Shown here: piece after piece, positions 5,224-64,000 of the stretch
Position numbering within the stretch: the first letter of the stretch is position 1
How the letters are laid out: each line of letters opens with the position of its first letter
Origin: an uncultured Clostridia bacterium
Lineage (GTDB): Bacteria > Bacillota > Clostridia > UBA1381 > UBA9506
NCBI GenBank assembly: GCA_944393605.1
Contig: CALYAO010000044.1
Location: 62,001-126,000 of the forward strand
Length of the DNA: 64,000 nt
Direction: 5' to 3'
The notes under the pieces: generated by a model
What the model saw: only the letters and a program-made list of their open reading frames with translations
Database searches by the model: none
Told to the model about the DNA's origin: nothing
Translations under genes and position numbers: made by a program

Positions 5224-7352
5224 TTACGCCTGTGGTTCTTCGTCAGTCGTAACCGCGCCGGGGTCAATGGTGAGGTTGGTGTAATCCAGCTTGAGCTTGA
5301 AGGTATCAAGGACGTTATAGGTTTCACCATAGCCGCTGCCAACGGTGAAGGTATACTCCACGATGTTGGTGTCGTTGTCCGCACCCAGCGAGAGGGCCCA
5401 GTCAGCACCTTTTGCCTTGTGCGCAAACTGGATGGCCATCTTGTAGTAGCGGACGCCGTCGATGGTGACCGTCTGGCCATCGGTGGTTTGGTTGTCCAGC
5501 TTGATCATGCTGTCGTAGGGGATAGAAACCTGGTCGCTGAAATTAACGGTTTCGGCCCCCTCGGGCAGCCGGAAGTAAGCATAGGTAAAGGCAACGTCAT
5601 CGGCCCAGTCATAGCTGGGATCGTCCGTGGGGCACTCGGTCAGCGCATCCAGGTCACTCTTGGCAACCGTACCAGTGAAGGTGACGACTTCCTTGTCGCC
5701 TTCTTGAGAGGTCTTCACTTCAACGCCGGGCAGAGCAATGGTAGCAACGTCATCGGGGTCGCCCGCTTCGCCGCCGCCATAGACGACACCAGTATCAATG
5801 AAGAGGTTGGTGTAATCCAGCTTGAGCTTGTAGGAAGCAAGCGCTTCATAGGTATCTTCGTTGACGCGGCCAACGGTAAAGTTGTATTCCACAATCTTGG
5901 TGTCGTTGTCCGCACCCAGCGAGAGGGCCCAGTCGCTACCTTTTGCCTTGTGCGCGAACTGGATGACCATCTTGTAGTACTGAACGTCGTCGATGGTGAC
6001 CGTCTGTCCGTCGGTGGTGGAGCCATCCAGCTTGATCATGTCATCGGAGGGGACAGAAATCTGGTCACCGAAATTGACAGTATCGGCCCCCGCAGGCAGC
6101 GGGAAGTAAGCATAGGTAAAGGCAACGTCGTCGGCCCAGTCGTAGTTGGTATCGCTTGTGGGGCACTCGGTGAGGGCACCCAGGTCGTCCTTGGCAACCG
6201 TACCGGTGAAGGTGACAACTTCCTTGTCGTCCTCCTGGGAGGTCGTAACGGTGACGCCGGGCAGCTCGATGTTGGCAACGTCACCCTCGTCGCCGCCGTC
6301 ATAGACCACGCCGGTGTCAATGAAGAGGTCGGTGTAATCCAGTTTCAGCTTGTAGGAAGCAAGCGCTTCATAGGTCTCCCCATAGCCGCTGCCAACGGTG
6401 AAGTTGTATTCCACAATCTTGGTGTCGTTGTCCGCACCCAGCGAGAGGGCCCAGTCGCTACCTTTTGCCTTGTGCGCGAACTGGATAACCATCTTGTAGT
6501 AGCTGGCATCGCCGATGGTGACCGTCTGGCCATCGGTGGTGGAGCCGTCCAGCTTGATCATGTCATCGTAGGGGATGGAAGCCTGGCCGTCCAGGTCAAC
6601 GGTCTCAGCACCATCGGGCAGCCGGAAGTAAGCATAGGTAAAGGCAACGTCATCGGCCCAGTCGTAGTTGGGGTCACTCGTCGGGCACTCGGTCAGCGCG
6701 CCCAGGTCGTCCTTGGTAACCGTACCGGTGAAGGTGACAACCGCCTGGTCGCCTTCCTGGGAAGCCTTCACCTCAACGCCGGGCAGCTCAATGTTGGCAA
6801 CGTCACCTTCGTCGCCATTGTCGAAGACGACGCCGGTGTCGATGAAGAGGTTGGTGTAATCCAGTTTCAGCTTGTAGGAAGCAAGCGCTTCATAGGTCTC
6901 CCCATAGCCGCTGCCGACGGTGAAATTGTACTCCACAATCTTGGTGTCGTTGTCCGCACCCAGCGAGAGTTCCCAATCGCCGCCCTTGGCCTTGTGCGCG
7001 AACTGGATAACCATCTTGTAGTAGTCCACGCCGTCGATGGTGACCGTCTGTCCGTCGGTGGTGGAGCCATCCAGCTTGATCATATCGTCGTATGGGATGG
7101 AAGCCTGGCCGTCCAGGTCAACGGTCTCGGCCCCCTCGGGCAGACGGAAGTAAGCATAGGTAAAGGCAACGTCGTCGGCCCAGTCGTAGTTGGTATCGCT
7201 TGTGGGGCACTCGGTGAGAGCACCCAGGTCGTCCTTGGTAACCGTACCAGTGAAGGTGACAACCGCCTGGTCGCCTTCCTGGGAAGCCTTCACCTCAACG
7301 CCGGGCAACTCGATGTTGGCAACGTCACCCTCGTCGCCATTGTCGAAGATAA
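5224..7352 (-). repeat. Four tandem in-frame repeats (~522, 522, 531 bp and a last shorter copy)
   Basis: The same point in each copy (the GDVAN or DDVAT codons) falls at 7321, 6799, 6277 and 5746, giving periods of 522, 522 and 531 bases. Long stretches are identical at the DNA level between copies, while the fourth copy has diverged most and carries three extra codons. Such near-identity points to recent duplication or gene conversion. Confidence 0.9.
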
Positions 7353-8097
7353 CATCTTCAGGCGTGGGGGTCGGTGTAGCAGTCGGTCTGCTAGTCGGCC
7401 GAGAGGTCGGTCTGTAGCCCGAATTGCCGCCATAGCCGCCGCCGTTGATGGTAATGGAACCGCTTCCGCCAGGCATGAACTCCGTGCAGAAACGATACAG
7501 AATGCAAGCCACCTCTGCACGGGTCGCAGATCCTTTCGGTGCAAGCGTGGATGCGTCAATGCCATTGATCAGTCCGGCATTGTTCGCCCACTGCATCGCC
7601 TGTACAGCGCAGTCACTGATGTCTGACGCATCAGCATACCCGGACAGGTCGGCTGCGCCCGTTACATCATAGCCTTCGTTCTGGGCATACCGGAATAAAA
7701 TCAGCGCCATTTGTTCGCGTGTAATCGGATTGTTGGGGCCAAACGTGCCATCGCCGTAGCCGTCAACAATGCCGTTGGATGCAGCCCAAGCAACCGCGTC
7801 AGCATAATATGTACCCATTCCAACATCGTCGAATTGCGCTTGGGATGTGATGGGACTGCCTTCCAAACGATGCAAAATGGTGACGATCATACCGCGCGTG
7901 GTCGTTTCATTCGGACCAAAGGTTGTGTAGGTCATGCCTTGCATCAAACCATTTTCGCGCGCATACTGAACACCGTCATAATACCATGCGTTCATAGGAA
8001 CATCATCGAAGGGATTTCCTGCTGCAGATGTTGTGATGGGAATTAAGCTCATCGACAGACACAAAAATAAGATACTTGCAATGATTCGTTTCTTCAT
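5224..8097 (-). CDS. SLH surface protein with four tandem ~174-residue repeats
   Basis: 957 residues. Signal peptide (1-25), then three N-terminal SLH repeats to about residue 210 (motifs FDDVPMNAWYYDGV, TFGPNNPITREQMAL, SATRAEVACILYRF), which should tether it to cell-wall polymer. A Gly-rich then Arg/Pro/Thr linker leads into four tandem copies of an acidic beta-rich domain I do not recognise; each contains ADDVAFTYAY, YKMVIQFAHKAKG and LSLGADNDTKIVEY. No catalytic signature is seen. A surface spacer, adhesin or structural S-layer-like role fits best, but this is inference. Promoter at 8147-8175, strong AGGAGG ribosome site, own terminator. It lies between manA and the manA remnant, both in the same direction. 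Confidence 0.85.
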   Translation of the reverse strand: MKKRIIASILFLCLSMSLIPITTSAAGNPFDDVPMNAWYYDGVQYARENGLMQGMTYTTFGPNETTTRGMIVTILHRLEGSPITSQAQFDDVGMGTYYADAVAWAASNGIVDGYGDGTFGPNNPITREQMALILFRYAQNEGYDVTGAADLSGYADASDISDCAVQAMQWANNAGLINGIDASTLAPKGSATRAEVACILYRFCTEFMPGGSGSITINGGGYGGNSGYRPTSRPTSRPTATPTPTPEDVIFDNGDEGDVANIELPGVEVKASQEGDQAVVTFTGTVTKDDLGALTECPTSDTNYDWADDVAFTYAYFRLPEGAETVDLDGQASIPYDDMIKLDGSTTDGQTVTIDGVDYYKMVIQFAHKAKGGDWELSLGADNDTKIVEYNFTVGSGYGETYEALASYKLKLDYTNLFIDTGVVFDNGDEGDVANIELPGVEVKASQEGDQAVVTFTGTVTKDDLGALTECPTSDPNYDWADDVAFTYAYFRLPDGAETVDLDGQASIPYDDMIKLDGSTTDGQTVTIGDASYYKMVIQFAHKAKGSDWALSLGADNDTKIVEYNFTVGSGYGETYEALASYKLKLDYTDLFIDTGVVYDGGDEGDVANIELPGVTVTTSQEDDKEVVTFTGTVAKDDLGALTECPTSDTNYDWADDVAFTYAYFPLPAGADTVNFGDQISVPSDDMIKLDGSTTDGQTVTIDDVQYYKMVIQFAHKAKGSDWALSLGADNDTKIVEYNFTVGRVNEDTYEALASYKLKLDYTNLFIDTGVVYGGGEAGDPDDVATIALPGVEVKTSQEGDKEVVTFTGTVAKSDLDALTECPTDDPSYDWADDVAFTYAYFRLPEGAETVNFSDQVSIPYDSMIKLDNQTTDGQTVTIDGVRYYKMAIQFAHKAKGADWALSLGADNDTNIVEYTFTVGSGYGETYNVLDTFKLKLDYTNLTIDPGAVTTDEEPQA

Positions 8098-8146
8098 GTG
8101 GCTGCTCCTCCTAAATATTATATTAATTTATAGTAAGCTTTTTTTT

Positions 8147-8175
8147 ATTATATCAGGAATCTGCATAAAAAACAA
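8147..8175 (-). promoter_or_regulatory. Promoter of the 957-residue SLH gene
   Basis: Minus strand TTGTTT (8175-8170), 17-base spacer, TATAAT (8152-8147), about 50 bases before the start at 8097. Confidence 0.65.
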
Positions 8176-8289
8176 TAGATTTATGCTTTTTCAGGGATTT
8201 GATACATGATTCGATGCATTGAAACAATTTTTTTAGATGTTTTTTACAGCAACACTCCTCTGCTAGGTATGTGAAATGTCAGTCATCCT

Positions 8290-8391
8290 TCAAAAAAACA
8301 AGGACATATACCTGCGCAGCATATGTCCACCCTGGCAGGTGCACCAGACATGGTCTTCCAGCAAGGGAAAATATGTTTTCGAATACAGCAT
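8290..8391 (-). pseudogene. Remnant of the 5' end of a second manA
   Basis: A 33-codon reading frame from ATG 8391 aligns without gaps to the start of the intact manA: 15 of the first 29 residues match, including M-L-x-S-K, LLE, and VWCTCQGGHML against VWRTYQGGHLL. The similarity is also clear in the DNA. Everything downstream of about codon 29 is missing, so no enzyme can be made. The remnant runs into an inverted repeat (8302-8309 with 8321-8328) followed on the minus strand by a T-rich tract, which resembles a terminator. It lies in the same orientation as manA and the SLH gene. Either a tandem duplication decayed, or an older manA was replaced. Confidence 0.6.
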
Positions 8392-8509
8392 GCTTCCTAC
8401 CATTGTTTTTTTGTTTATGTATTGGACGAAAAAATTCTTTTTTTGTTCCAGGTTTTTTCCTATACCGCCTAAAATCGTAAAATAATCCACGGGAATGATA
8501 TTTTTTCTA

Positions 8510-8538
8510 TTGTCTTCCTTGTTTTTCGCCATTATAAT
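8510..8538 (+). promoter_or_regulatory. Promoter of the GH38 gene
   Basis: TTGTCT (8510-8515), 17-base spacer, TATAAT (8533-8538), 75 bases before the mannosidase start. The upstream stretch 8392-8509 holds nothing else I recognise. Confidence 0.75.
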
Positions 8539-8613
8539 GAAAGAGATTGTACTCACTGGAGCTTTTTACACAACAATTGGGCAAAAATGTCTGCCCGGAA
8601 ATGGAGGAGAGCC

Positions 8614-11592
8614 ATGCCATACCATTTTGATACCTGGCGGAAGACCATTGATACCACGTATGCCGCGGTGGAAAAGGCGATATTTACAAGGCTTTGCGAC
8701 CTTGCTATCACGTTGTATCACACCAAGGAGCCGGTTCCTTTTTTGCGGCGCATGGAGGGCGAGGCGTGCTGCCCCAAGCGGGAGGAACGCTGGGGAGAGC
8801 TGTTTGATTGCGGCTGGTTCCACTTTGAGGGCACCATTCCCTCCGAGGCGGCGGGCAAGGCCGTGTCGCTGTACATTGATGTGGGCGGGGAGCTGTTGGT
8901 TTACGATGAAAACGGCATCCCGGTGCGGGGCCTCACCAACGTCAATACTCTGTACTATCCCGAGGACAAGGCGGGCAAGTGCGAACTGCCCATAACGGAC
9001 TGTGCGGCGGGCGGCGAGCCCATTGACATCTGGGCGGATGCCGGCTGCAACGACCTGGCGGGGATGGATACGGACAATGGGACGCTGCACGAAGCCTCCA
9101 TCTGTGTGATGAACCCCCAGATGAAGGGGCTGTTTTACGATATGGAGGTGCTCCGTGACCTGCTGGTGTGTCTGCATCCCGACAGCGCGGCATACCACCA
9201 GGTGCTGTATGCGCTGCATCAGGCGGCGCTTAAGATGCAGGACTATACCGAGGAAGAGGCGTTATCCGCGCGCGCCATCTTGGCGCCCCAGCTGGCAAAG
9301 CGGGGCGGCGACCCCTCTCTGACTGTCACCGCCATCGGGCATGCGCACATCGATCTTGCATGGACATGGCCCCTGCGGGAGACCTACCGCAAGGGCGCGC
9401 GCACCTTTGCCACGGCCCTGCGCAACATGGAGACCTATCCGGCATACCGCTTCGGCGCGAGCCAAATGCAGCTGTATGCCTGGATCAAGCGGGACCATCC
9501 GGCGCTGTATGAGCAGATCAAGCGGCGCGTCGCGGAAGGCCGCTGGGAGGTCCAAGGCGGCATGTGGGTGGAGGCGGACACCAACTGTTCGGGTGGTGAA
9601 GCGCTCATCCGGCAGTTTTTGTATGGCAAGCGGTTTGCAAAGGAAGAGTTTGGCCTGGATATGCGCATGCTGTGGCTGCCCGACGTGTTTGGATACACCG
9701 CATCCCTGCCCCAGATTTTAAAGAAATGCGGTGTGGACTATTTTATGACCATCAAGCTCTCGTGGAGCAAGGTGGATGTATACCCCCATCACACCTTTCT
9801 GTGGCGGGGCATCGACGGGACGGAGGTCTTGGCGCACATGCCGCCCGAGAACAACTATGTCAGCGCGGCGCTGCCCAACAGCCTGCGGGATGCGGAGCGG
9901 CAGTACTGTGACAAGTGCGTGTCGGACGAGTGCCTGCTGCCGTTTGGCATCGGGGATGGCGGCGGCGGACCGGGAGAACCCCATCTGGAGCGGCTGGAGC
10001 GGCTGGGCGACATGCAGGGCCTGCCCCGTGTGCGCCAGGGGTTTGCGGTGGACTTTTTTGACCGCCTGAACGAGGGCCGTGACCGGTATCAGACATGGGA
10101 AGGGGAGCTGTACCTCGAGTTCCATCAGGGCACCTACACCACACAGGCCCGGAGCAAACAGTACAACCGCCGCATGGAACAGGCGCTGCGGGAGTGGGAG
10201 TTTGCAATGGTGCTGTCGGGCGCGGATGCAGAGGCGACCCGCGCGGAGCGGGATGCCATCTGGCAGGAGATGCTGCTCTACCAATTCCATGACATCTTGC
10301 CAGGATCTTCCATCAAACGGGTCTATGACGAGAGCCTCGCGCGGTATGCGGACCTGCTGGCGCAGGTGGAGGCGCACACGGCGGCATGCTATGCGGCGCT
10401 GGGCAAGCGCTTCTCTGGCGGAGCAGATACCCTCCTTGCGGTCAACTCCCTCGGTTGGGAGCGAACGGGGTATGTCCCCTGCCAGGGCGGCTATAAGCGC
10501 GTGACCCTCCCGGCACTGGGATGCTGCGTGGTGGATGTGAGCGCGCCTGACATGCCATCCGGCGTGTTGGTTGCCCAGGAGAATTTGTTGGAAAATGACC
10601 TGCTGCGGGTGGAGCTGGGGCCCGATGGCGCCATTTCGCGCATGGTGGATAAACGAGCGGACCGCGAGGTGCTAGATGGCGTCGGCGGCCGGTTTGCGGT
10701 GTACTACGACAGCGGGGATGCCTGGGATTTCTCCATGGATTTCCGCGGCCGTGCGCCCGAGTATTTTGCGTTGGTTTCGTCCGAGGCGGCGGTATGCGGC
10801 GTATGCGCATCGGTGACCCAGACCTATCGGTATGGGGATTCCACATTGAAGGTCGTGCTGTCTTTGTTGGAAGGGGATAGCATGCTCACGTTTGCGGCGG
10901 AGGCGGACTGGCATGAGAAGGCGCGCATGCTGCGCGTGAGCTACCCTTCGGCGGTGAAGGCGGAAACCGCCACCTGCAACATCCAGTTCGGCAACTTAAA
11001 GCGGCCGACCACGGCCAACACCAGCTGGGAATTTGCCAAACATGAGGTGTGCGCCCATCACTTTGTGGACCTGTCCGAGCCGGGGTATGGGGTGGCGCTC
11101 TTGAGCCGGGATAAGTATGGATTCTCGGTGGCAGACAGCGTGCTGGACATGAACCTCCTGCGGAGTACCAGCTATCCTGACGAGAGTGCAGACCAGGGTG
11201 TCCATACCTTCACATGGGCGGTGTATCCGCATGCAGGCAGCCTGGAACAGTCGGATGTGGACCGGCGGGGCTATGAATTCAATCTGCCCATTCAGACCGC
11301 GCCGTGCGGCGGCGGCACGGCGCTGTCGGCCTCTTTGCTTGCGGTGGATGCGCCCAATGTCATTGTGGAGACGGTGAAGCCTGCGGAAGACGGCCAGGGC
11401 TTCGTGGTGCGGCTGTATGAGAGCCGCGGCATGCGCACCAAGGCGACGATTCGGTCTAGGATTCCGCTTTCGGGCATGGCGCTGTCGGATATGCTGGAAC
11501 AGGAGCAGGAAACGCTCGATATGTGCGACAATACGGCGCTTCTCACCTTTGCGCCGTTTGAGATCCATACGGTGCGGCTTTTCAAAAAATAA
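8614..11592 (+). CDS. Alpha-mannosidase, glycoside hydrolase family 38
   Basis: 992 residues without signal peptide, so cytoplasmic. GH38 enzymes are zinc-dependent retaining exo-alpha-mannosidases. Visible: an N-terminal beta domain; the active-site motif HAHIDLAWTW with H245 and D247 of the zinc site; the nucleophile Asp in WLPDVFGY (D357); a second zinc His in FHDILPGSS (H559); and long C-terminal beta domains. The ATG at 8614 follows GGAGGAG; the in-frame ATG at 8587 lacks a ribosome site. It is the first gene of the sugar-uptake block: the importer (11694-15004) would bring in alpha-mannosyl oligosaccharides, this enzyme would release mannose, and manA could feed the phosphorylated sugar to glycolysis. 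Substrate linkage cannot be told from sequence. Confidence 0.93.
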   Translation: MPYHFDTWRKTIDTTYAAVEKAIFTRLCDLAITLYHTKEPVPFLRRMEGEACCPKREERWGELFDCGWFHFEGTIPSEAAGKAVSLYIDVGGELLVYDENGIPVRGLTNVNTLYYPEDKAGKCELPITDCAAGGEPIDIWADAGCNDLAGMDTDNGTLHEASICVMNPQMKGLFYDMEVLRDLLVCLHPDSAAYHQVLYALHQAALKMQDYTEEEALSARAILAPQLAKRGGDPSLTVTAIGHAHIDLAWTWPLRETYRKGARTFATALRNMETYPAYRFGASQMQLYAWIKRDHPALYEQIKRRVAEGRWEVQGGMWVEADTNCSGGEALIRQFLYGKRFAKEEFGLDMRMLWLPDVFGYTASLPQILKKCGVDYFMTIKLSWSKVDVYPHHTFLWRGIDGTEVLAHMPPENNYVSAALPNSLRDAERQYCDKCVSDECLLPFGIGDGGGGPGEPHLERLERLGDMQGLPRVRQGFAVDFFDRLNEGRDRYQTWEGELYLEFHQGTYTTQARSKQYNRRMEQALREWEFAMVLSGADAEATRAERDAIWQEMLLYQFHDILPGSSIKRVYDESLARYADLLAQVEAHTAACYAALGKRFSGGADTLLAVNSLGWERTGYVPCQGGYKRVTLPALGCCVVDVSAPDMPSGVLVAQENLLENDLLRVELGPDGAISRMVDKRADREVLDGVGGRFAVYYDSGDAWDFSMDFRGRAPEYFALVSSEAAVCGVCASVTQTYRYGDSTLKVVLSLLEGDSMLTFAAEADWHEKARMLRVSYPSAVKAETATCNIQFGNLKRPTTANTSWEFAKHEVCAHHFVDLSEPGYGVALLSRDKYGFSVADSVLDMNLLRSTSYPDESADQGVHTFTWAVYPHAGSLEQSDVDRRGYEFNLPIQTAPCGGGTALSASLLAVDAPNVIVETVKPAEDGQGFVVRLYESRGMRTKATIRSRIPLSGMALSDMLEQEQETLDMCDNTALLTFAPFEIHTVRLFKK

Positions 11593-18977: not shown

Positions 18978-21900
18978 ATGTCACTGACCAAGAAAACAGT
19001 CTCCGTCCTGCTCACCCTGTGTATGGCACTCGGGCTGTTCCTGCTGCCGGTGCAGGCGGCAGGTATGGCGGAGATAAACGAAATTGCAGATACCTATCAG
19101 GAGGGCACGGTGAACATCTCGGGGGTCGCCTATGGCTCCTCCAAGTATGTGCAGCTCTACCTGTATGATGAAAGCGGCGCGCTCAAATTCTATGATCAAA
19201 TTGCGGTCTCGGGCGGGCAATTCCAGAGAAGTATTGTGGTGCCCCTCACGTGGACGCCGGGCGAGTATACCGCAAAGGCAAGCTATGCAGGTGTGTGGCT
19301 CACCGAGCGGACCTTCCATGTTGCGGACTCCAATACCTTCATTGGCATGGTAGATATTGAAGCTGCCATTGACCAGTATGAGACCTACACCCTGCCTGCG
19401 ACGGCTACGGCGGATTACACCAATGCCGACCAGGAGGTGCCTGTAACGTGGGGCACATGGACCCCTGCGCTGGACACCCATGTGGCAGGGACCTATGTGA
19501 ATGAAGGAACGGCCATGGTGGACGGCAGTGCGGAATCGGTCACGCTGACCCTGACGGTCAATGCGGTTTCGGTTACCGCGGTGACGGCGCCTGGTGACAT
19601 GACGGTGGAGATCGGGGATACGGTGTATCTGCCTCAGACCGTTAGCGGTACGTTGTCCAACGGGAAAACAGCGGCGCTGGCCGTCACATGGACACCCGAT
19701 CCCGCAACGGCTGACACCAGTTCCGAAAAAACGCTGACCTTCTCCGGGTCGGTGGAAAACTATGCGACTCCCATCACCGTGACGGTAGCGGTGAAGGCGG
19801 AGGTGCTGCCCATTCCGGAAGATGGGCTTGCGATCTGGACCAAGGCGGAAGCGGGCGGCTATGAGCTGGATGATCAGGGCCGTGTCATGACCTGGCTGGA
19901 TCAGTCGGGCAACGGCAATCACCTGGTGGCACCCGGCGAGGTCAACCGTCCCACCATCGCACAAAATGCGGTGAACCGTCAGAAGGCGCTGGATTTTGAC
20001 GGCGTCAACAACTACCTGACCATGGAGTATGATACCCCCTATGTTGGGGATAGCACGGTGATCATTGTACATAAGATCCGGGAAACCGCAGTCAGCTCGG
20101 CCAATCCGTCGCGTGCGTATACCGGTATCTTTAATACCGCGCCCCAAGGCGCAACGGGGAATGACATTGATACCTTCCTGATCAGCGACACGACGGCGCA
20201 GTTCCGCTGGAACAATGTGCAGGACGGCCGCCTGCCCAAAGACCGGTCTGAGACCTGGTTCAACTGGGATAACACGTCATTCCACAGTGTCGGCCTGCGG
20301 TTTGTCAACAATTATGTGGATGGCGTCTGGCAAAATGTGGATGTCACCAAGGACTACGACGGGACACTGACCACGACGCAGTATGGCGTATACCAAAATA
20401 CCCCCACCCCGCTTAACAACCATGTCGGCTTCATGCTGAATGGACGTGTGGGCGGCGGCGGACATCGCTGCCTCAATTCGGAGGTCGCAGAGGTCATTGT
20501 GTACCATCGTGCACTGACCGATGAGGAATTTACACAGGTGGAGAACTATCTGGATGACAAATACCGCAAAGAAAATCGGTATACCATCACGGAGCAGACC
20601 GAAACACCTGCCGGCGAAGGTACGGTGGATCTCAGTGCGAAGCTGAGCAACCTGAGCAGCACCGTACTCAAAGAAGCCGTTGCGATCCCTGTGGTGTACG
20701 ATGGCCAGACCATGGTTTCGCAAGGCGCGACACAGGTGACGGGTCTTGCGTCGGGTGCTTCCCAGGCCATTGTGGCAGAGGATATGGCGGTGCCGGCGGA
20801 CGACACCAACAAGTCGGTCAAATACTATCTGTGGGATAGTTTGGAGGACATGCATCCCCTGCTGTTTGACACCCCTGTACCCGAGAAGTCGGCATATGTG
20901 CCCGGTACGGGTGATCAGGTTACCATCACGAGCGTTGTGCCCGAGGGCAACGTCATCACCGTATCGGGTGTGACGCCGGGCGGCGCGGACAAGAAGCTAA
21001 CGCTGTTGGCGGCAGTGGCCGGCCAGCCGCTTGGAAAAGATAGCATCTACTATGCAGGCGAGGCCATGAGCGGCGCAGACGGCGCTTTCACGGCGCAGTT
21101 TGCTATGCCCGACACCGCGATGGACGGAACGCCGCTCAAAGCAGAGTTTGACCTCTATGTCGGCGGGGAAGAAGCGGAGCGTTCGGAAGCTGCGTCCTTC
21201 TCCTTCGTGAGCGAGAGTCTGCGGCAGTCCACCATCCAAAAGATCAACGATGCGGCAGAGGACAAGGACCTTGCGGCCATCTTTGCGCCCGATTCGGAAG
21301 ACCGGGTGGCGCTGGATGCGCTGGGCCTCTCCATGGCGGTCCAGTATGACGCCCTCACGGATGCGGGCAAGCAGGTTATGCGGGACGCGGTGATGAACGG
21401 CAGACCCTACGATGTGAATGATGGGACCGGCCTGGCCGCAGTATTTGGCGCCGCATATCCGTATGCGCTGCTCTTGCAGGCGGAGGATGCGGCTGAAATC
21501 ACCGAGGTGCTGGACACCTATGCGTCAGAGACGTTTGGCATGGAGACGGTAACAGGCAAGAAGCAAGAGGACCTGACCGCAGAAGAAAAGACTGCGGTGA
21601 GTGAATATCTGCTCGCGCACATGCCCGACTATCCGGGGGATACGGCGGCGTTTGGGCAGGCATATCAACTGGGGTATGCGTTCTGCCAGATCAACAGCGC
21701 CAGCTATGTGAGCATGGCCACCGCGCTGTCGGACAACGCTGCGCTGCTGGGGCTCACGGAAAACAGCGCCTATACCTCCTACCTGGGCATGTCGGACGAC
21801 GGCAAGGAATATGTGCAGACCGAAATGGTGAAGGATGCATTCGAATCGCCGTTTGATACCGCAGAGGAGGTTATCTCCAGCCTGACGAGTGCCGTGAACA

Positions 21901-34780: not shown

Positions 34781-34804
34781 AGGGGCTTTGGCCCCTGTTT
34801 TTTT
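34781..34804 (+). terminator. Intrinsic terminator of ruvC
   Basis: 6-bp GC stem (34781-34786 with 34791-34796), loop TTTG, then seven T (34798-34804). Confidence 0.85.
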
Positions 34805-34830
34805 GTCAGCGCTAAAATATTTACCGGGGC
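34799..34830 (+). repeat. Left terminal inverted repeat of the 1.45-kb repeat segment
   Basis: 32 bases (TTTTTTGTCAGCGC, then TAAAATATTTACCGGGGC) that match the reverse complement of 36213-36244 with a single mismatch. Confidence 0.85.
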
Positions 34831-35018
34831 TGTGCCGCCCCCGGGGGTGCCCGTATTGCACAGGGGGTACCCTCTGCATGCCCCAGGCCTCCTTTTTCTC
34901 CGAAGAAAAAGGAGCAAAAAGTCGCTGGGGGCGTTCCCCCAGACCCCCCGGCAGCCCGCAGCACCCGCGGCCCCTGCCAGACATGTTCTCTACCACACTG
35001 TTAGGTGAGCGCTCGAAT
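34805..35018 (+). repeat. GC-rich hairpin repeat, copy 1
   Basis: Shares with the other three copies the blocks GCCCCAGGCCTCCTTTTTC, GGGGGCGTTCCCCCAGAC, CGGCAGCCCGCAGCACCCG and the end block CTACCACACTGTTAGGTGAG. Rich in perfect hairpins: CTCCTTTTTCT with AGAAAAAGGAG, and CTGGGGG with CCCCCAG. Open frames across it translate the repeat and are not considered genes. Confidence 0.85.
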
Positions 35019-35051
35019 AAAAAAACACCCCATATGTTCAATCATTAAACT

Positions 35052-35430
35052 TTTTACCTGGGCGATGCCTCCCCGTTCTCGTCGCGTCAAGCGTCGCCTG
35101 CTCGGTTTCCCCTGCGGGAAAACCGTCGCTTAACTCCGCTGCCGCTCCTCTTTCCCACAGCGCACGCAGGCGCTGTGGGGACCCCATCATTGCATAGGGG
35201 GTATTCTCTGCACGCCCCAGGCCTCCTTTTTCTTTGGAGGAAATAACGGAAACATCGCCTACAGCGATGGGCTGAAACGCTTAATGCAAGCTGCGCCATC
35301 GCTTGCTTTCATTAAGCGTTTCATGCCAAAAGTCGCCAGGGGAATGCCCCCGGCCCCCCCGGCAGCCCACAGCTCTCGCGGCCCCTGCCAAACATGTTCT
35401 CTACCACACTGTTAGGTGAGCGCTCGAATA
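35052..35430 (+). repeat. GC-rich hairpin repeat, copy 2 (long form with inserted palindrome)
   Basis: Long form: starts with the block GTCGCGTCAAGCGTCGCCTG and a CCCACAGCGC...GCGCTGTGGG hairpin also found in copy 4, then the common core and end block. About 87 bases (35241-35327) are inserted in the core and contain a large palindrome: GAAACGCTTAATG near 35274 pairs with CATTAAGCGTTTC ending at 35322, with an inner CAAGC/GCTTG stem. Confidence 0.83.
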
Positions 35431-35509
35431 GGCTGAAAATCCAAATATGTTGTATTTCGAGTTCGGTTGTGATAGATAAATGAGAGGATTCTATTAGAAA
35501 ATTCTCGTT

Positions 35510-35538
35510 TAGACTTTTTATGACCTTCCTTCTATAAT
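35510..35538 (+). promoter_or_regulatory. Promoter of the 59-residue RHH-like gene
   Basis: TAGACT (35510-35515), 17-base spacer, TATAAT (35533-35538), 22 bases before the start. The AT-rich stretch 35485-35505 holds an imperfect palindrome that could be an autoregulatory operator. Confidence 0.65.
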
Positions 35539-35560
35539 AAGGTAGAAGGAGGCGGTTTGG

Positions 35561-35740
35561 ATGGCGTTTATTCCAAAAAGTACCAGACAGAAACAAGAAG
35601 TGGCCTATAAGACGCTTTATATATCCAAAAAATATGAAGAAAAAATCAACCAAATCGCCCGGGAGAACAATACGAGCTTTAACAATGTTGTGGTCAGTAT
35701 GATTGAACAATGTCTGCAAGGCGACGAACAAAATAACTAA
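35561..35740 (+). CDS. 59-residue ribbon-helix-helix-like small protein
   Basis: Starts at ATG 35561 behind AAGGAGG and stops at 35740. The sequence KTLYISKKYEEKINQIAREN followed by NTSFNNVVVSMIEQCL has the beta-strand, helix, turn (NNTSFNN), helix pattern of Arc/MetJ/CopG-type ribbon-helix-helix DNA-binding proteins; the assignment is by pattern only. It is the single plausible gene inside the 1.45-kb segment bracketed by inverted repeats and lies between the inward-facing ends of repeat copies 2 and 3. Own promoter and terminator. No toxin partner or transposase is next to it. It could regulate itself, or bind the repeats; neither is shown. Its AT content is higher than that of its surroundings. 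Confidence 0.75.
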   Translation: MAFIPKSTRQKQEVAYKTLYISKKYEEKINQIARENNTSFNNVVVSMIEQCLQGDEQNN

Positions 35741-35749
35741 AATTCAAGA

Positions 35750-35788
35750 AAACATCCAAAAATTATGGACTAACTGGATGTTTTTTTA
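35750..35788 (+). terminator. Intrinsic terminator of the RHH-like gene
   Basis: 8-bp stem (35750-35757 with 35776-35783), 18-base loop, T-run to 35787. The T-run is shared with the end of repeat copy 3. Confidence 0.78.
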
Positions 35789-35996
35789 TTTGAGCACTCA
35801 CCTAACAGTGTGGTAGAGAACATGTTTGGCAGGGGCCGCGGGTGCTGTGGGCTGCCGGGGGGTCTGGGGGAACGCCCCCAGCGACTTTTTGCTCCTTTTT
35901 CTTCGGAGAAAAAGGAGGCCTGGGGCGTGCAGAGGGCACCCCCTATGCAGAAGGGGTATCTCCGGGGAGGCATCGCCCCGGTAGACAAATGAGCGC
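35785..35996 (-). repeat. GC-rich hairpin repeat, copy 3 (inverted)
   Basis: Reverse orientation of copy 1, closest to it in the core; its inner end starts with GAGCACTCACCTAACAGTG, the inverse of the end block of copies 1 and 2, so the two flanking copies face the RHH-like gene symmetrically. Confidence 0.85.
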
Positions 35997-36015
35997 TTTC
36001 CCCCATCGCCGGAGG

Positions 36016-36244
36016 CCATACTTTTTCTATCATATCTTCATAGAAAAAGAAGGCCTGGGGCGTGCAGAGGGTACCCCCTATGCAATGATGGGGTCCCCAC
36101 AGCGCCTGCGTGCGCTGTGGGGAAGAGGAGCGGCAGCGGCGTTAAGCGACAGTTTTCCCGCAGGGGAAACAGAGCAGGCGACGCTTGACGCGACGAGAAC
36201 GGGGACGGCATCGCCCCGGTAAATATTTTAGGGCTGACAAAAAA
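36016..36244 (-). repeat. GC-rich hairpin repeat, copy 4 (inverted, long form without end block)
   Basis: Matches the long left half of copy 2 in reverse, including the CCCCACAGCGC/GCGCTGTGGGG hairpin. The core hairpin differs in sequence (CTTTTTCTAT with ATAGAAAAAG) but keeps the pairing seen in copies 1 and 3. The end block is absent. Confidence 0.82.
36213..36244 (-). repeat. Right terminal inverted repeat of the 1.45-kb repeat segment
   Basis: Reverse complement of 34799-34830 at 31 of 32 positions. Its outer end also forms a 12-bp hairpin (36232-36243 with 36257-36268), which can act as a terminator. Confidence 0.85.
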
Positions 36245-36316
36245 TCTGGACCACAATTTTTGTCAGCCAAAAATAGCTGGCGCACAGCCCAAGCAACCAA
36301 TTTAGAGGTGGCAAAA

Positions 36317-39018: not shown

Positions 39019-39909
39019 TTAGACCTTTAAATACTTCCGTACAGAAATCAGGCTGCCGATACCGCCAAGCAGGATGCCCATCAGCGCGAACAGACCCGAT
39101 GAAGTCAGCCAGATGCGACTCAGCGGCACAAATTTTACAAAGGTAATGCCCAAATTTTCCACCATGCCAAGCAGCCCGTTATAGGCAAAGCCTAAGATGA
39201 GAAGGGAGATGATGCATCCGAAAAAGCCGATGATCACGCCCTCGATGACAAAGGGCCATCGGATGAACCAATCGGTTGCGCCCACAAATTTCATGATATT
39301 GATCTCCTTGCGGCGGGCGAACACAGTAAGCTTGATGGTATTGGAAATGATGAACACCGAAACAATGGCAAGCGCCAACATGACCCAGATGCTGATGTTG
39401 CTGATGGAATCGGTCACAGTGACGAGCGTGTTGATGGTATCCTGGTTGCGCGCAATCTTGGCAACCCCGCTGATTTGCTCCAGCTGCGCGGCGGTTTGCT
39501 CGGCGAGGTCCAGCGATTCCATGGTGACCATATACCAGTCTCGAAGCGGGTTGTCCTCCTCGTATCCATCCAGCACGGAGGCGTCTTCCCCCAAGTCCTC
39601 TTTTAAATCTGCGAGCCGCTGATCATTGGGGTTTAAAACGACCTCCTGCACATTGGGGATGTTTCGGATCTCCTCCCCGATGGCCGCAAGCCGATCTTCC
39701 CCAACCGTCTCGTCTACCATAACGATGATCTCATAATCCGCCTCGATCTGTTCTGCGAAGTAGGAAACGTTGATGCTGAGGATCATAAACAGGCCAAACA
39801 CCAGCAAGCTGGCCACAACGGTCAGAATGGACGCCATACTCATCCAGCCGTTGGAAAACACATTCCGAAAGGCCTCTTTGATAAAATAGCGTCCGCCTCT
39901 AATTTTCAT
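39019..39909 (-). CDS. ftsX: Cell division ABC transporter permease FtsX
   Basis: 296 residues, four membrane helices (the first about 21-44), an extracellular domain about 48-165 that in Gram-positives contacts a PcsB/CwlO-type peptidoglycan hydrolase, and the FtsX core (ISIWVMLALAIVSVFIISNTIKLTVFARRKEINIMKFVGA). With FtsE it couples ATP hydrolysis to wall hydrolysis. ATG 39909 overlaps the ftsE stop by 11 bases and has GAGGGG nine bases upstream; the ATG at 39933 is longer by eight residues. Its likely hydrolase partner, the coiled-coil M23 protein at 48974-50146, is 9 kb away instead of directly downstream. Confidence 0.93.
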   Translation of the reverse strand: MKIRGGRYFIKEAFRNVFSNGWMSMASILTVVASLLVFGLFMILSINVSYFAEQIEADYEIIVMVDETVGEDRLAAIGEEIRNIPNVQEVVLNPNDQRLADLKEDLGEDASVLDGYEEDNPLRDWYMVTMESLDLAEQTAAQLEQISGVAKIARNQDTINTLVTVTDSISNISIWVMLALAIVSVFIISNTIKLTVFARRKEINIMKFVGATDWFIRWPFVIEGVIIGFFGCIISLLILGFAYNGLLGMVENLGITFVKFVPLSRIWLTSSGLFALMGILLGGIGSLISVRKYLKV

Positions 39910-40585
39910 AGCCGTATACCCCTCTGGTTTCATCCCGCGCGATCACGCCGTCCTCGATGGCGATGACGCGCTTTTTCATACTGTCCACAATCTCCTTGGC
40001 ATGGGTCGCCATGATGACGGTGGTCCCCCGTTTATTGATGTCATCCAAAATCTCCACGATCTCCGCGGCGGTCTTGGGGTTGAGGTTCCCTGTGGGCTCG
40101 TCCGCGATGAGGTATGCGGGGTTGTTCACAATGGCACGCGCCAGCGCGACCCGCTGCTGCTCGCCGCCCGAAAGCTGGGTGGGCAGCATCTTGGCCTTGT
40201 GGGACAGGCCGACTAGGCTCAGCGCGTTGGGGACACTTCGCCGGATATCCCGTTTGCTGGCCTGCACGATCTGCATGGCAAACGCGACATTTTCATACAC
40301 AGTCTTGTTGGGCAGCAGTCGAAAATCCTGGAACACGACCCCCATGCGGCGCCGGAGGTACGGAATCTGGCTGCGCTTTAAACGGCTCACGTTGATGTCG
40401 TTGATGATGACATCTCCGCTGGTGGGGGTTTCCTCATGCATGAGCAGCTTGATGAGCGTCGATTTTCCGGCGCCGCTGGGGCCCACGATGAATACAAATT
40501 CTCCCTTGTCGATGTAAAAGCTGACATTGTCCAGCCCAACCGTGCCGTTTTCATATACTTTGGTTACGTTGCTAAATAGAATCAA
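39899..40585 (-). CDS. ftsE: Cell division ATP-binding protein FtsE
   Basis: 228 residues. ABC ATPase partner of FtsX. Walker A GPSGAGKS, Q-loop VVFQDFRLLPN, signature LSGGEQQRVALARA, Walker B YLIADEPTGNL, and H-loop ATHAKEIV are all intact. Begins MILFSNVTKVYENGTVGLDNVS. Overlaps ftsX by 11 bases, indicating coupled translation. Upstream lies the PucR-type regulator gene in the same direction, with a hairpin-containing 86-base gap. Confidence 0.95.
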   Translation of the reverse strand: MILFSNVTKVYENGTVGLDNVSFYIDKGEFVFIVGPSGAGKSTLIKLLMHEETPTSGDVIINDINVSRLKRSQIPYLRRRMGVVFQDFRLLPNKTVYENVAFAMQIVQASKRDIRRSVPNALSLVGLSHKAKMLPTQLSGGEQQRVALARAIVNNPAYLIADEPTGNLNPKTAAEIVEILDDINKRGTTVIMATHAKEIVDSMKKRVIAIEDGVIARDETRGVYGYEN

Positions 40586-48973: not shown

Positions 48974-50146
48974 TCAACCGACGTATTCAAGCGGGTTGCG
49001 TTCAACGCCGTTTACCAGCACCTCAAAATGCAGGTGAGGTCCTGTGGAGACACCGGTACTGCCGACGCGTGCAATCTGCTGCCCTTGCGAAACCGTTTGA
49101 CCGGCACTGACGAGGAGGGAACTGTTGTGTCCATACAGCGTCGCCATGCCGTTGCCGTGATCGATCACGACGCAATTGCCATACCCGCCGTTCCAGCCCG
49201 CAAGGGTTACGGTTCCGCCCGCGGAGGCATATACCGCGGAGCCGTAGCTGCCGCCGATATCGATACCCGAATGGAACCGCTCCACGCCGTATACGGGGTG
49301 TGTCCGCGTGCTGAATTGGCTGGTGATATAGTGGGAACTGGGCAGGGGCCAGATAAAGGCGCCGCCGTTCTCGTTGGAGATGAAAGCGGGCGCATTAGAC
49401 GAGCTGCGGGACAGGGTAGGCGTAAGCTGGGCCTTGAGCGCCTGCTCCTGCTCTTCCGCTTCCGCAATGGCGGCCTCATAGGCCTCCATATCGTTCTTGA
49501 GCGCTTCGATGAACTGTGTTTTTTCCGCTAGCTTGGCATCCAAAGCGGCTTTTTTGTCCGCAACCAGCGAACGGGCTTCTTCCTGTTCCGCTTTGCTGGC
49601 CTCAATCTCCTGCTTGGACTGCACCACGCCATTTTTGAGGGTCACCATCTGGTCAATGATGGCTTGGTCGTGTTCGGAGATCTCTCTTAAGGTTTCCATC
49701 CGCACTAAAAAGTCAGACAGACTTTCTGCCTCCAGCAAAATGTCGATATATGTCGAAACGTTGATTTCGTCCATGGCGCGCAGGCGCTTACGAAACGCTT
49801 CGTCTTCCTTTTCGATATCCGCCTCATACTGCGTAATCTGCGCCTGTTTTTCCGCAATGCGCGCATCCGCATCCGCAATGATGGCGTCGATGCCCGAAAG
49901 TTCGTCCTCCAGGATGCTGATTTCGGTGTCCAGTGCGTCCTTTTCGGTGATGGCATCTTCCCTCTGGGCCTTTGCCTCATTGAGCTTTTCCAGGTTTTCC
50001 TTTTTGGACTTGGTTGCCTCATCCAACTTCTGCTGGACGGACGAAGTCGCTGCGTTGGTCACAATACCAGGTACCGCTGTGCCCCAAGTCAGCATGCCGG
50101 ATAGCAGCAGTATGCCGCAGCTTTTGATGATATGACGTTTCTGCAT
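48974..50146 (-). CDS. PcsB/EnvC-like peptidoglycan hydrolase: coiled coil plus M23 domain
   Basis: 390 residues. Signal peptide (1-33), long coiled coil about 35-255 rich in Glu, Lys and Ala, then a C-terminal M23 (LytM) domain. Zinc ligands H-x3-D in FHSGIDIGG and H-x-H in HLHFEV are intact, so it should be a working endopeptidase, not only an activator as in E. coli EnvC. Coiled-coil M23 or CHAP proteins of this layout are recruited by FtsEX for daughter-cell separation. ftsEX is 9 kb away. The M23 domain resembles that of the 42188-43822 protein (GGYGNxVxIDHGNG in both). Confidence 0.92.
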   Translation of the reverse strand: MQKRHIIKSCGILLLSGMLTWGTAVPGIVTNAATSSVQQKLDEATKSKKENLEKLNEAKAQREDAITEKDALDTEISILEDELSGIDAIIADADARIAEKQAQITQYEADIEKEDEAFRKRLRAMDEINVSTYIDILLEAESLSDFLVRMETLREISEHDQAIIDQMVTLKNGVVQSKQEIEASKAEQEEARSLVADKKAALDAKLAEKTQFIEALKNDMEAYEAAIAEAEEQEQALKAQLTPTLSRSSSNAPAFISNENGGAFIWPLPSSHYITSQFSTRTHPVYGVERFHSGIDIGGSYGSAVYASAGGTVTLAGWNGGYGNCVVIDHGNGMATLYGHNSSLLVSAGQTVSQGQQIARVGSTGVSTGPHLHFEVLVNGVERNPLEYVG

Positions 50147-50183
50147 GGTTTTCCTCCCCTTTATCTGCTGTCCTGCTGCCCAT

Positions 50184-51692
50184 TTATGACTCGTCCCTGG
50201 GAGTAGGCGGTGTTTCTATGATGGTTTTCATCTCCTCCGGGCTCTTGAGCATCTGGATAGCTGTATCAAACGGCGTATCGATCACCCGCTCATAGGTTTG
50301 AATCTGACTTTCCAGGAAGGTCTGGGTGGTAATATCCATGACGCCATAGGGGTATAGCCCCGCATTGCGCTGGAAGGTGGTCACAGCAACGACCAGCTCC
50401 TCATCATATACATCATTGATCTCCCCAACCTCATATCCAAAGAGGGAAAGCCGCTCCTTGATGGCCAAAACGCCCGGACCGGTGTCCCCCAGCTGATATT
50501 TCTCACTGTAGGTGAACGGCGTAAGCGTTGACTCATCAATGGGCTCATAGGTGTATTTGACCTTGAGGTGGGGCGCGATGCCACGGTGGTGAATGTTGTT
50601 GCCGCTCGGGGTCAGGTATTCCCCAACCGTCAGCTTGATGTCTCCCAGGTTCATGTCGCCATAGTTGATGAGCTGCATGAACTCCTGAATGGTGGCCTTG
50701 CCATAGGTGGTCTCTCCAATGATGATGCCCAGGTTATTGTCCATGATGGCACCGGTAAACACCTCGGCGGCGCTGGCGGTATACCCGTTGACCAGCACGG
50801 CCAGGTTGTACTTGGGCTCGGTGAATGTTGCAGTGGAATAATATGTCTGATCTCTTAAATCGTTGGTGAAATCCACCTGGATGAGCGGCAGGCCTTTGGG
50901 AACAAACATACTTAAGATGCTGGTGACGGAAGAAAGGTATCCGCCGGGATTGTTTCGCAGATCCACCACGATGTCTTTGATACCCTGTGCATCAAAGGAA
51001 GCAAGAGCCTTGGCCGTATCTGTGACAGCGGTATCATTAAACTGAGAGAGGACGAGCACCCCGATGTTGTCCTCCGTGACGCTGTATGCAATGGGGGAGG
51101 CATCCACCGCGGCACGCACCAGATGAAACTCCTGATATTCCCCGTTCCGGAGGATACCCAGCGTGACACTGGTTCCGGCATCGCCCTGGATGCGCTCCTG
51201 CGCCATGGCAATGTCAAAGTTCTTGGCGTCTTCCCCGTCGATGGAGGCAATCTGATCCTCCGGCATGAGGCCGGCCTCCTGCGCCGGAGAGTTGGGGGTA
51301 ATTGCGGTGATGGTGACATAACCGCCCTTGCGCTCGACGGTCACACCGATGCCGACGTAGCTGCCTTCGGTCTGATTGATGAAGCCCGAGAGCTCATCCT
51401 GTGTGAAATACATGGAGTTTTCGTCCAAGGAGTCCACGACGATCCCAATCAGCTCTTCCAATAGCTCGGGGTTTTCCTCCATGAGCCGAGTGATCACACT
51501 TTGGTAGATTTCGTCTTTTGGATAGTCAAACTTATAGTGCCGTTCTAACATTTCGATGACGCCATTGAGGTAGTAGGCGTAAAATGCCTTTTCCTCCTCG
51601 GTGTATTCTTTGGCATAGACGCCCAAAGAAGATGTGATGGTCAGTAGGACTGCGACGCATGCCGCCAGCAGGCCTTTGAAACGCTTGCGCAT
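50184..51692 (-). CDS. S41 protease with PDZ and C-terminal peptidoglycan-binding domain
   Basis: 502 residues. Signal peptide (1-27), helical pro-region, PDZ domain (VGIGVTVERKGGYVTITAI), S41 domain with catalytic Ser in NGYTASAAEVFTGA and Lys in ETTYGKATIQ, then a PG_binding_1 domain about 405-470 (LGDTGPGVLAIKERLSLFGY). This is the CtpB-like layout; in Bacillus such proteases act in signalling across the forespore membranes or on exported proteins. The ATG at 51692 follows GGAGAGGG; a longer frame to 51812 overlaps the promoter and is rejected. It is 37 bases upstream of the coiled-coil M23 gene, so probably one transcript. Confidence 0.92.
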   Translation of the reverse strand: MRKRFKGLLAACVAVLLTITSSLGVYAKEYTEEEKAFYAYYLNGVIEMLERHYKFDYPKDEIYQSVITRLMEENPELLEELIGIVVDSLDENSMYFTQDELSGFINQTEGSYVGIGVTVERKGGYVTITAITPNSPAQEAGLMPEDQIASIDGEDAKNFDIAMAQERIQGDAGTSVTLGILRNGEYQEFHLVRAAVDASPIAYSVTEDNIGVLVLSQFNDTAVTDTAKALASFDAQGIKDIVVDLRNNPGGYLSSVTSILSMFVPKGLPLIQVDFTNDLRDQTYYSTATFTEPKYNLAVLVNGYTASAAEVFTGAIMDNNLGIIIGETTYGKATIQEFMQLINYGDMNLGDIKLTVGEYLTPSGNNIHHRGIAPHLKVKYTYEPIDESTLTPFTYSEKYQLGDTGPGVLAIKERLSLFGYEVGEINDVYDEELVVAVTTFQRNAGLYPYGVMDITTQTFLESQIQTYERVIDTPFDTAIQMLKSPEEMKTIIETPPTPRDES

Positions 51693-63726: not shown

Positions 63727-64000
63727 ATGAAAAAACAACTGATCTTTGTAAACGGCACCATGGGCGCTGGGAAGAGCACGGTGTGCCGCGCGCTGGCGGA
63801 CAGGCTAACGCCCTGCGTCTTCTTGGATGGGGACTGGTGCTGGGACATGCATCCGTTCGTGGTAAATGAAGAGAACAAGGCCATGGTGCTGGGGAATATC
63901 GCCTATCTGCTCAATGCATTTCTGGCAAATACCTCTCTTACCTATGTCATCTTCTGCTGGGTGATGCAAGAGGAGCGCATCATAGAAGAGATATGCGCCC
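63727..64000 (+). CDS. AAA/P-loop nucleotide kinase-like protein, partial
   Basis: Partial: 91 codons are visible before the right edge. The opening MKKQLIFVNGTMGAGKSTVC holds a Walker A loop (GTMGAGKST), followed by FLDGDWCWDMHPF, a layout typical of small AAA_33/gluconate or shikimate kinase-like P-loop proteins that phosphorylate small molecules or antibiotics; the catalytic and lid regions lie outside. ATG 63727 has GAGGGG upstream. It stands after the rny terminator, so it must have its own promoter or rely on read-through. Confidence 0.75.
   Translation, partial: MKKQLIFVNGTMGAGKSTVCRALADRLTPCVFLDGDWCWDMHPFVVNEENKAMVLGNIAYLLNAFLANTSLTYVIFCWVMQEERIIEEICA

Follow-up and report, generated by a model that had tools for sequence, protein, structure and literature searches.

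In the intergenic gap ahead of a GH38 alpha-mannosidase gene, we found a short stretch that is very likely a dead, decayed partial copy of manA. The explanation that best fits the data overall, to which we assign a probability of about 0.83, is that a duplication of the manA start took place in this genome's lineage and that one of the copies has become nonfunctional. The window, that is, the whole stretch of 64,000 nucleotides analysed, covers positions 62001-126000 of contig 44; the draft genome has 97 contigs and a size of 2.5 Mb. From left to right, the locus is composed of manA (minus strand), an SLH-domain repeat gene (minus strand), a gap with the fragment, and the GH38 gene (plus strand). 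The gap between the SLH and GH38 genes is 489 bases long and A+T-rich (34% G+C), and the fragment lies inside it on the minus strand. The features are as follows.

4905 (ATG) to 3808, minus strand: intact manA of the parent lineage, type I mannose-6-phosphate isomerase (Pfam PMI_typeI_cat and MPI_cupin_dom, just above cut-off; family alignment).
5224..8097, minus strand: SLH-domain repeat gene, flanked by intact manA and the fragment (Pfam SLH, three stretches).
8290..8313, minus strand: non-homologous tail with the 3' arm of a hairpin, a T-run and the stop codon; no similarity to the remaining manA.
8302..8328, minus strand: hairpin resembling an intrinsic terminator, 11 pairs, followed by TTGTTTTTTT; its 5' arm is manA-derived.
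8314..8391, minus strand: probable decayed copy of manA codons 1-26 (ungapped amino acid and DNA match; near-invariant family residues lost).
8392..8430, minus strand: possible copy of the manA leader (RBS and -10 region), degraded; it prolongs the DNA alignment and is not significant alone.
8510-8538, plus strand: predicted sigma-70-like promoter ahead of the GH38 gene (promoter scan).
8587..11592, plus strand: gene for a GH38 alpha-mannosidase, with its start at 8587 or 8611 and divergent from the fragment (Pfam Glyco_hydro_38N/38C).

The ORF at 8391-8290 on the minus strand (102 bases) reads MLYSKTYFPLLEDHVWCTCQGGHMLRRYMSLFF*. Aligned with intact manA from the ATG, it is identical at 15 of 28 residues without any gap, and VW, T, QGGH and L are kept. 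The BLOSUM62 score of this match is 70, whereas 2000 shuffles gave a mean of 23 and a maximum of 41. At the DNA level, 59 of 87 bases are identical and the local score is 88, as compared with 45 or less in 500 dinucleotide shuffles. When all 2.5 Mb of the genome were searched in a tblastn-like manner, manA was the sole match of the fragment besides itself (E = 0.0013), and a pattern scan at 0 mismatches returned these two sites and no others. Homology at the DNA level can be relied on between 8391 and about 8314 (codon 26), where it ends. The sequence-only reading had taken 8290-8391 for a manA fossil in the same orientation as intact manA, with VW-T-QGGH-L strictly retained in a gap-free match of 15 positions and with similarity ceasing beyond the start; all of this was reproduced, both sequences lie on the minus strand, and the match stands far above random sequences. 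Homology possibly extends 39 bases further upstream, across the RBS and up to the -10 region (about 8430); this extension is suggestive and alone not significant, being equalled in 20 of 300 shuffles and, once the self match is excluded, at 4 of 109 other ORF starts.

Judged by its residues, the source of the fragment is the manA lineage of its own genome, because the two share H23, E12 and Q20, which are absent or rare in other manA homologues (0, 1 and 3 of 79, respectively), and because the genome's own manA matches the fragment at 45 of 57 bases over codons 8-26, whereas the best of 68 homologues reaches 35. To obtain the set of 79 homologues, sequences more than 95% identical to the genome's own manA were removed, as were additional hits within one locus and alignments that began beyond residue 8; the 68 used for the DNA comparison are ungapped over codons 8-26 and have enough sequence there. 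The comparison genomes are outside the genus of this bacterium, and the best ManA beyond its own genome is 48% identical. In the plasmid collection, 74 of 74 records were below 60%. The genome itself has two more manA homologues (G000:C52:71582-72538 and C81:64916-65341), which are 36-37% identical to the manA of the window.

The fragment has drifted at positions that the family conserves. At the columns P7, N13, R14, R17 and Y19, intact manA has the family residue, which is found in 68 of 70, 65 of 79, 75 of 79, 77 of 79 and 77 of 79 homologues, respectively, whereas the residues of the fragment at these columns occur in none of the 70-79 homologues. The 33-codon ORF hits no Pfam family and lacks both the catalytic and the cupin domain of a functional type I isomerase. 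With family-invariant sites mutated and no catalytic or cupin part, the fragment would therefore yield no working isomerase. In manA homologues, position 3 of codons changes most; in the 29 codons compared here, the differences at positions 1, 2 and 3 number 10, 9 and 9, although with so few sites this evenness alone is weak (P = 0.12 against an assumed 45% of changes at position 3). Counted from manA to the fragment, 14 changes are towards A/T and 7 towards G/C, as expected in unconstrained A+T-rich DNA. The reading frame around the fragment is still open over 91 codons; a typical pseudogene is full of stops, but 87 bases are short.

The hairpin at the end of the fragment (8328-8302 on the minus strand) has 11 pairs, is followed by TTGTTTTTTT, and has a folding energy of -15.5 kcal/mol (z -3.8). 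As in intrinsic terminators, a stable hairpin is followed here by a T-run. Its 5' arm, GGACATATGCT, comes from manA, where the parent reads GGACATTTGCT, whereas its 3' arm does not. Of 1000 shuffles of the intergenic gap, 9 contained an equally strong terminator-like site, and the whole window has three such strong sites against 0.15 expected; a simpler and looser scan for promoters and terminators was at chance level for the region. The hairpin looks like a predicted intrinsic terminator assembled at the breakpoint. An extended -10-like motif, TGATATAAT, which the promoter scan did not list, is located at 8155-8147 between the hairpin and the SLH gene, so the predicted terminator would shield the SLH gene from upstream minus-strand transcription. 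The new feature here is this ending of the fragment in a strong predicted terminator-like hairpin with a manA-derived 5' arm.

The hairpin, together with the frame that is still open, might suggest that the stretch is a live element, such as a leader ORF or attenuator with its terminator, or an RNA regulator made from the start of manA. A plus-strand RNA across the fragment would moreover pair with the manA mRNA at -120.5 kcal/mol, and none of 295 window controls was as strong; such pairing is, however, expected because the fragment is homologous to manA. Against a live element, Rfam searches over 7900-8800 gave only sub-threshold, implausible matches, none of them near the gathering score, and the manA-like -10 and RBS, if homologous, are degraded. 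The first 124 loci contained no further copy at E below 0.1, and elsewhere in the genome the fragment's surroundings gave only chance matches of 17-19 bases; the simpler scan being at chance level also speaks against this explanation, which we consider improbable. It is still much harder to believe that the dead start of manA serves a new purpose, with the predicted terminator insulating the SLH gene and a plus-strand RNA towards GH38, complementary to the manA start, tying alpha-mannosidase expression to the control of manA. Least probable of all is a chance resemblance in intergenic DNA. When 49 putative genes were compared with the window, another weak intergenic match outside repeats did appear at 63730-63816 (E 0.009). 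However, the fragment shares the ATG start with manA, aligns without gaps, differs alike at the three codon positions, scores beyond all shuffles and carries lineage-specific residues of its own manA; the shuffle tests and these residues contradict chance.

The match at 63730-63816 is to the ORF 39899-40585 (29 residues, 41%) and may itself be chance. Raw scores of 62 and 58 between manA and the ORFs 48977-50215 and 21000-21524 came from local alignments, with gaps, against long ORFs and were set aside; neither ORF is among the matches listed in the 49-gene scan, for which the filter was narrow. Repeated DNA is clustered at 34794-36249 in both orientations: the inverted arms measure 192 nt (93%) and 170 nt (95%), the direct copies 106 nt (89%), and there is a recurring motif close to CTCTGCACGCCCCAGGCCTCC.

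The same dead fragment could have another history, in which a tandem duplication placed the whole manA or a mannose unit on either side of the SLH gene and a later deletion removed all but the start of the second copy. The confidence that we give to it overlaps with that of the best explanation. The shared orientation and the beginning of the fragment at or before the start codon accord with it, and the palindrome at 8302-8328 could be the end of a deletion. However, the rest of manA (about 340 codons) and its 3' flank were sought in 8098-8313 and left no trace (score 19, shuffle mean 19.7), and shared flanks sought on both sides of the SLH gene were all at shuffle level. Because only the first 26 codons or so, perhaps with the leader, are present, a second whole manA is unsupported. 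The sequence-only reading had held that the region once contained two manA copies and that a duplicated mannose unit was rearranged; as a statement about whole genes or a whole unit, this found no support. A partial duplication of the 5' end of manA would be the simpler reading, as it explains the data as well in fewer steps, and we regard the tandem history as unlikely.

A check proposed with that reading was whether relatives have manA directly beside the GH38 gene. This holds for only a few distant genomes. The two genes adjoin in four of them: in L101 and L085 they diverge, which apart from the SLH gene is the arrangement seen here, and in G086 (L140) and G020 (L141) they share a strand. 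L101 and L085 are 2 of 80 manA loci of genome contigs (L045-L124, many of them ended by contig ends), and the GH38 match in L085 is partial and 28% identical; G086 and G020 are two genomes of the same order. In the closest GH38 relatives, G037 and G029 (47%), no manA was found within the 18 kb and 9 kb stretches examined. The adjacency is not general among the genomes compared. Since manA and GH38 are neighbours in four distant genomes, it is plausible that a divergent pair manA<- ->GH38 was the ancestral order and was later split by the SLH gene.

The preferred reading, duplication of the manA start, may then be outlined as follows: A short piece that includes the manA start (some 26 codons, perhaps together with the leader) was probably duplicated in this genome's lineage, and one of the two copies ceased to function. 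The dead start now lies upstream of the SLH gene and intact manA downstream. In the likeliest history, the divergent manA<- ->GH38 pair was split when an illegitimate event brought in the SLH gene and copied the beginning of manA. The original start would have stayed next to GH38 and decayed, and the other copy would live on as manA. The end of the fragment now forms the predicted terminator-like hairpin, and this may halt minus-strand transcription ahead of the SLH gene. The SLH gene used as query gave 80 matches in its own genome, nearly all in the SLH part of the query, and the set of SLH-domain proteins is large for a 2.5 Mb genome.

In conclusion, the fragment is a small and ordinary case of genome decay, a gene fossil, and it alters no view of the mannose pathway. 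It may serve as a small record of rearrangement at a mannose-use locus, and as a worked case in which a gene remnant of 78 bases was distinguished from chance by lineage-specific residues. If real, the terminator would be a neat regulatory signal built from the end of a dead gene.

Integrating elements can displace the 5' end of a gene by bringing a new gene start, as SXT does in prfC. The present locus resembles that case in that inserted DNA is flanked by a displaced gene start and by the intact gene. It differs in that the 3.2 kb between them have no integrase gene among their ORFs, only the SLH gene, and in that shared flanks were sought at the borders and not found. As compared with type I mannose-6-phosphate isomerase (ManA, Pfam PF20511 / PF21621), the 26 codons of the fragment are homologous and carry the lineage-specific QGGH, whereas the catalytic and cupin domains are missing and the family-invariant N, R, R and Y are lost. 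The fragment comes closest to the truncated gene duplicates and pseudogene fragments of bacterial intergenic regions, a general concept (compare Pseudofinder, PMC9336565): it is short, derived from a neighbour and drifting without visible constraint, with the start kept and the domains missing. It differs from them in being very short, in having a frame that is not yet broken, and in ending in a terminator-like hairpin.
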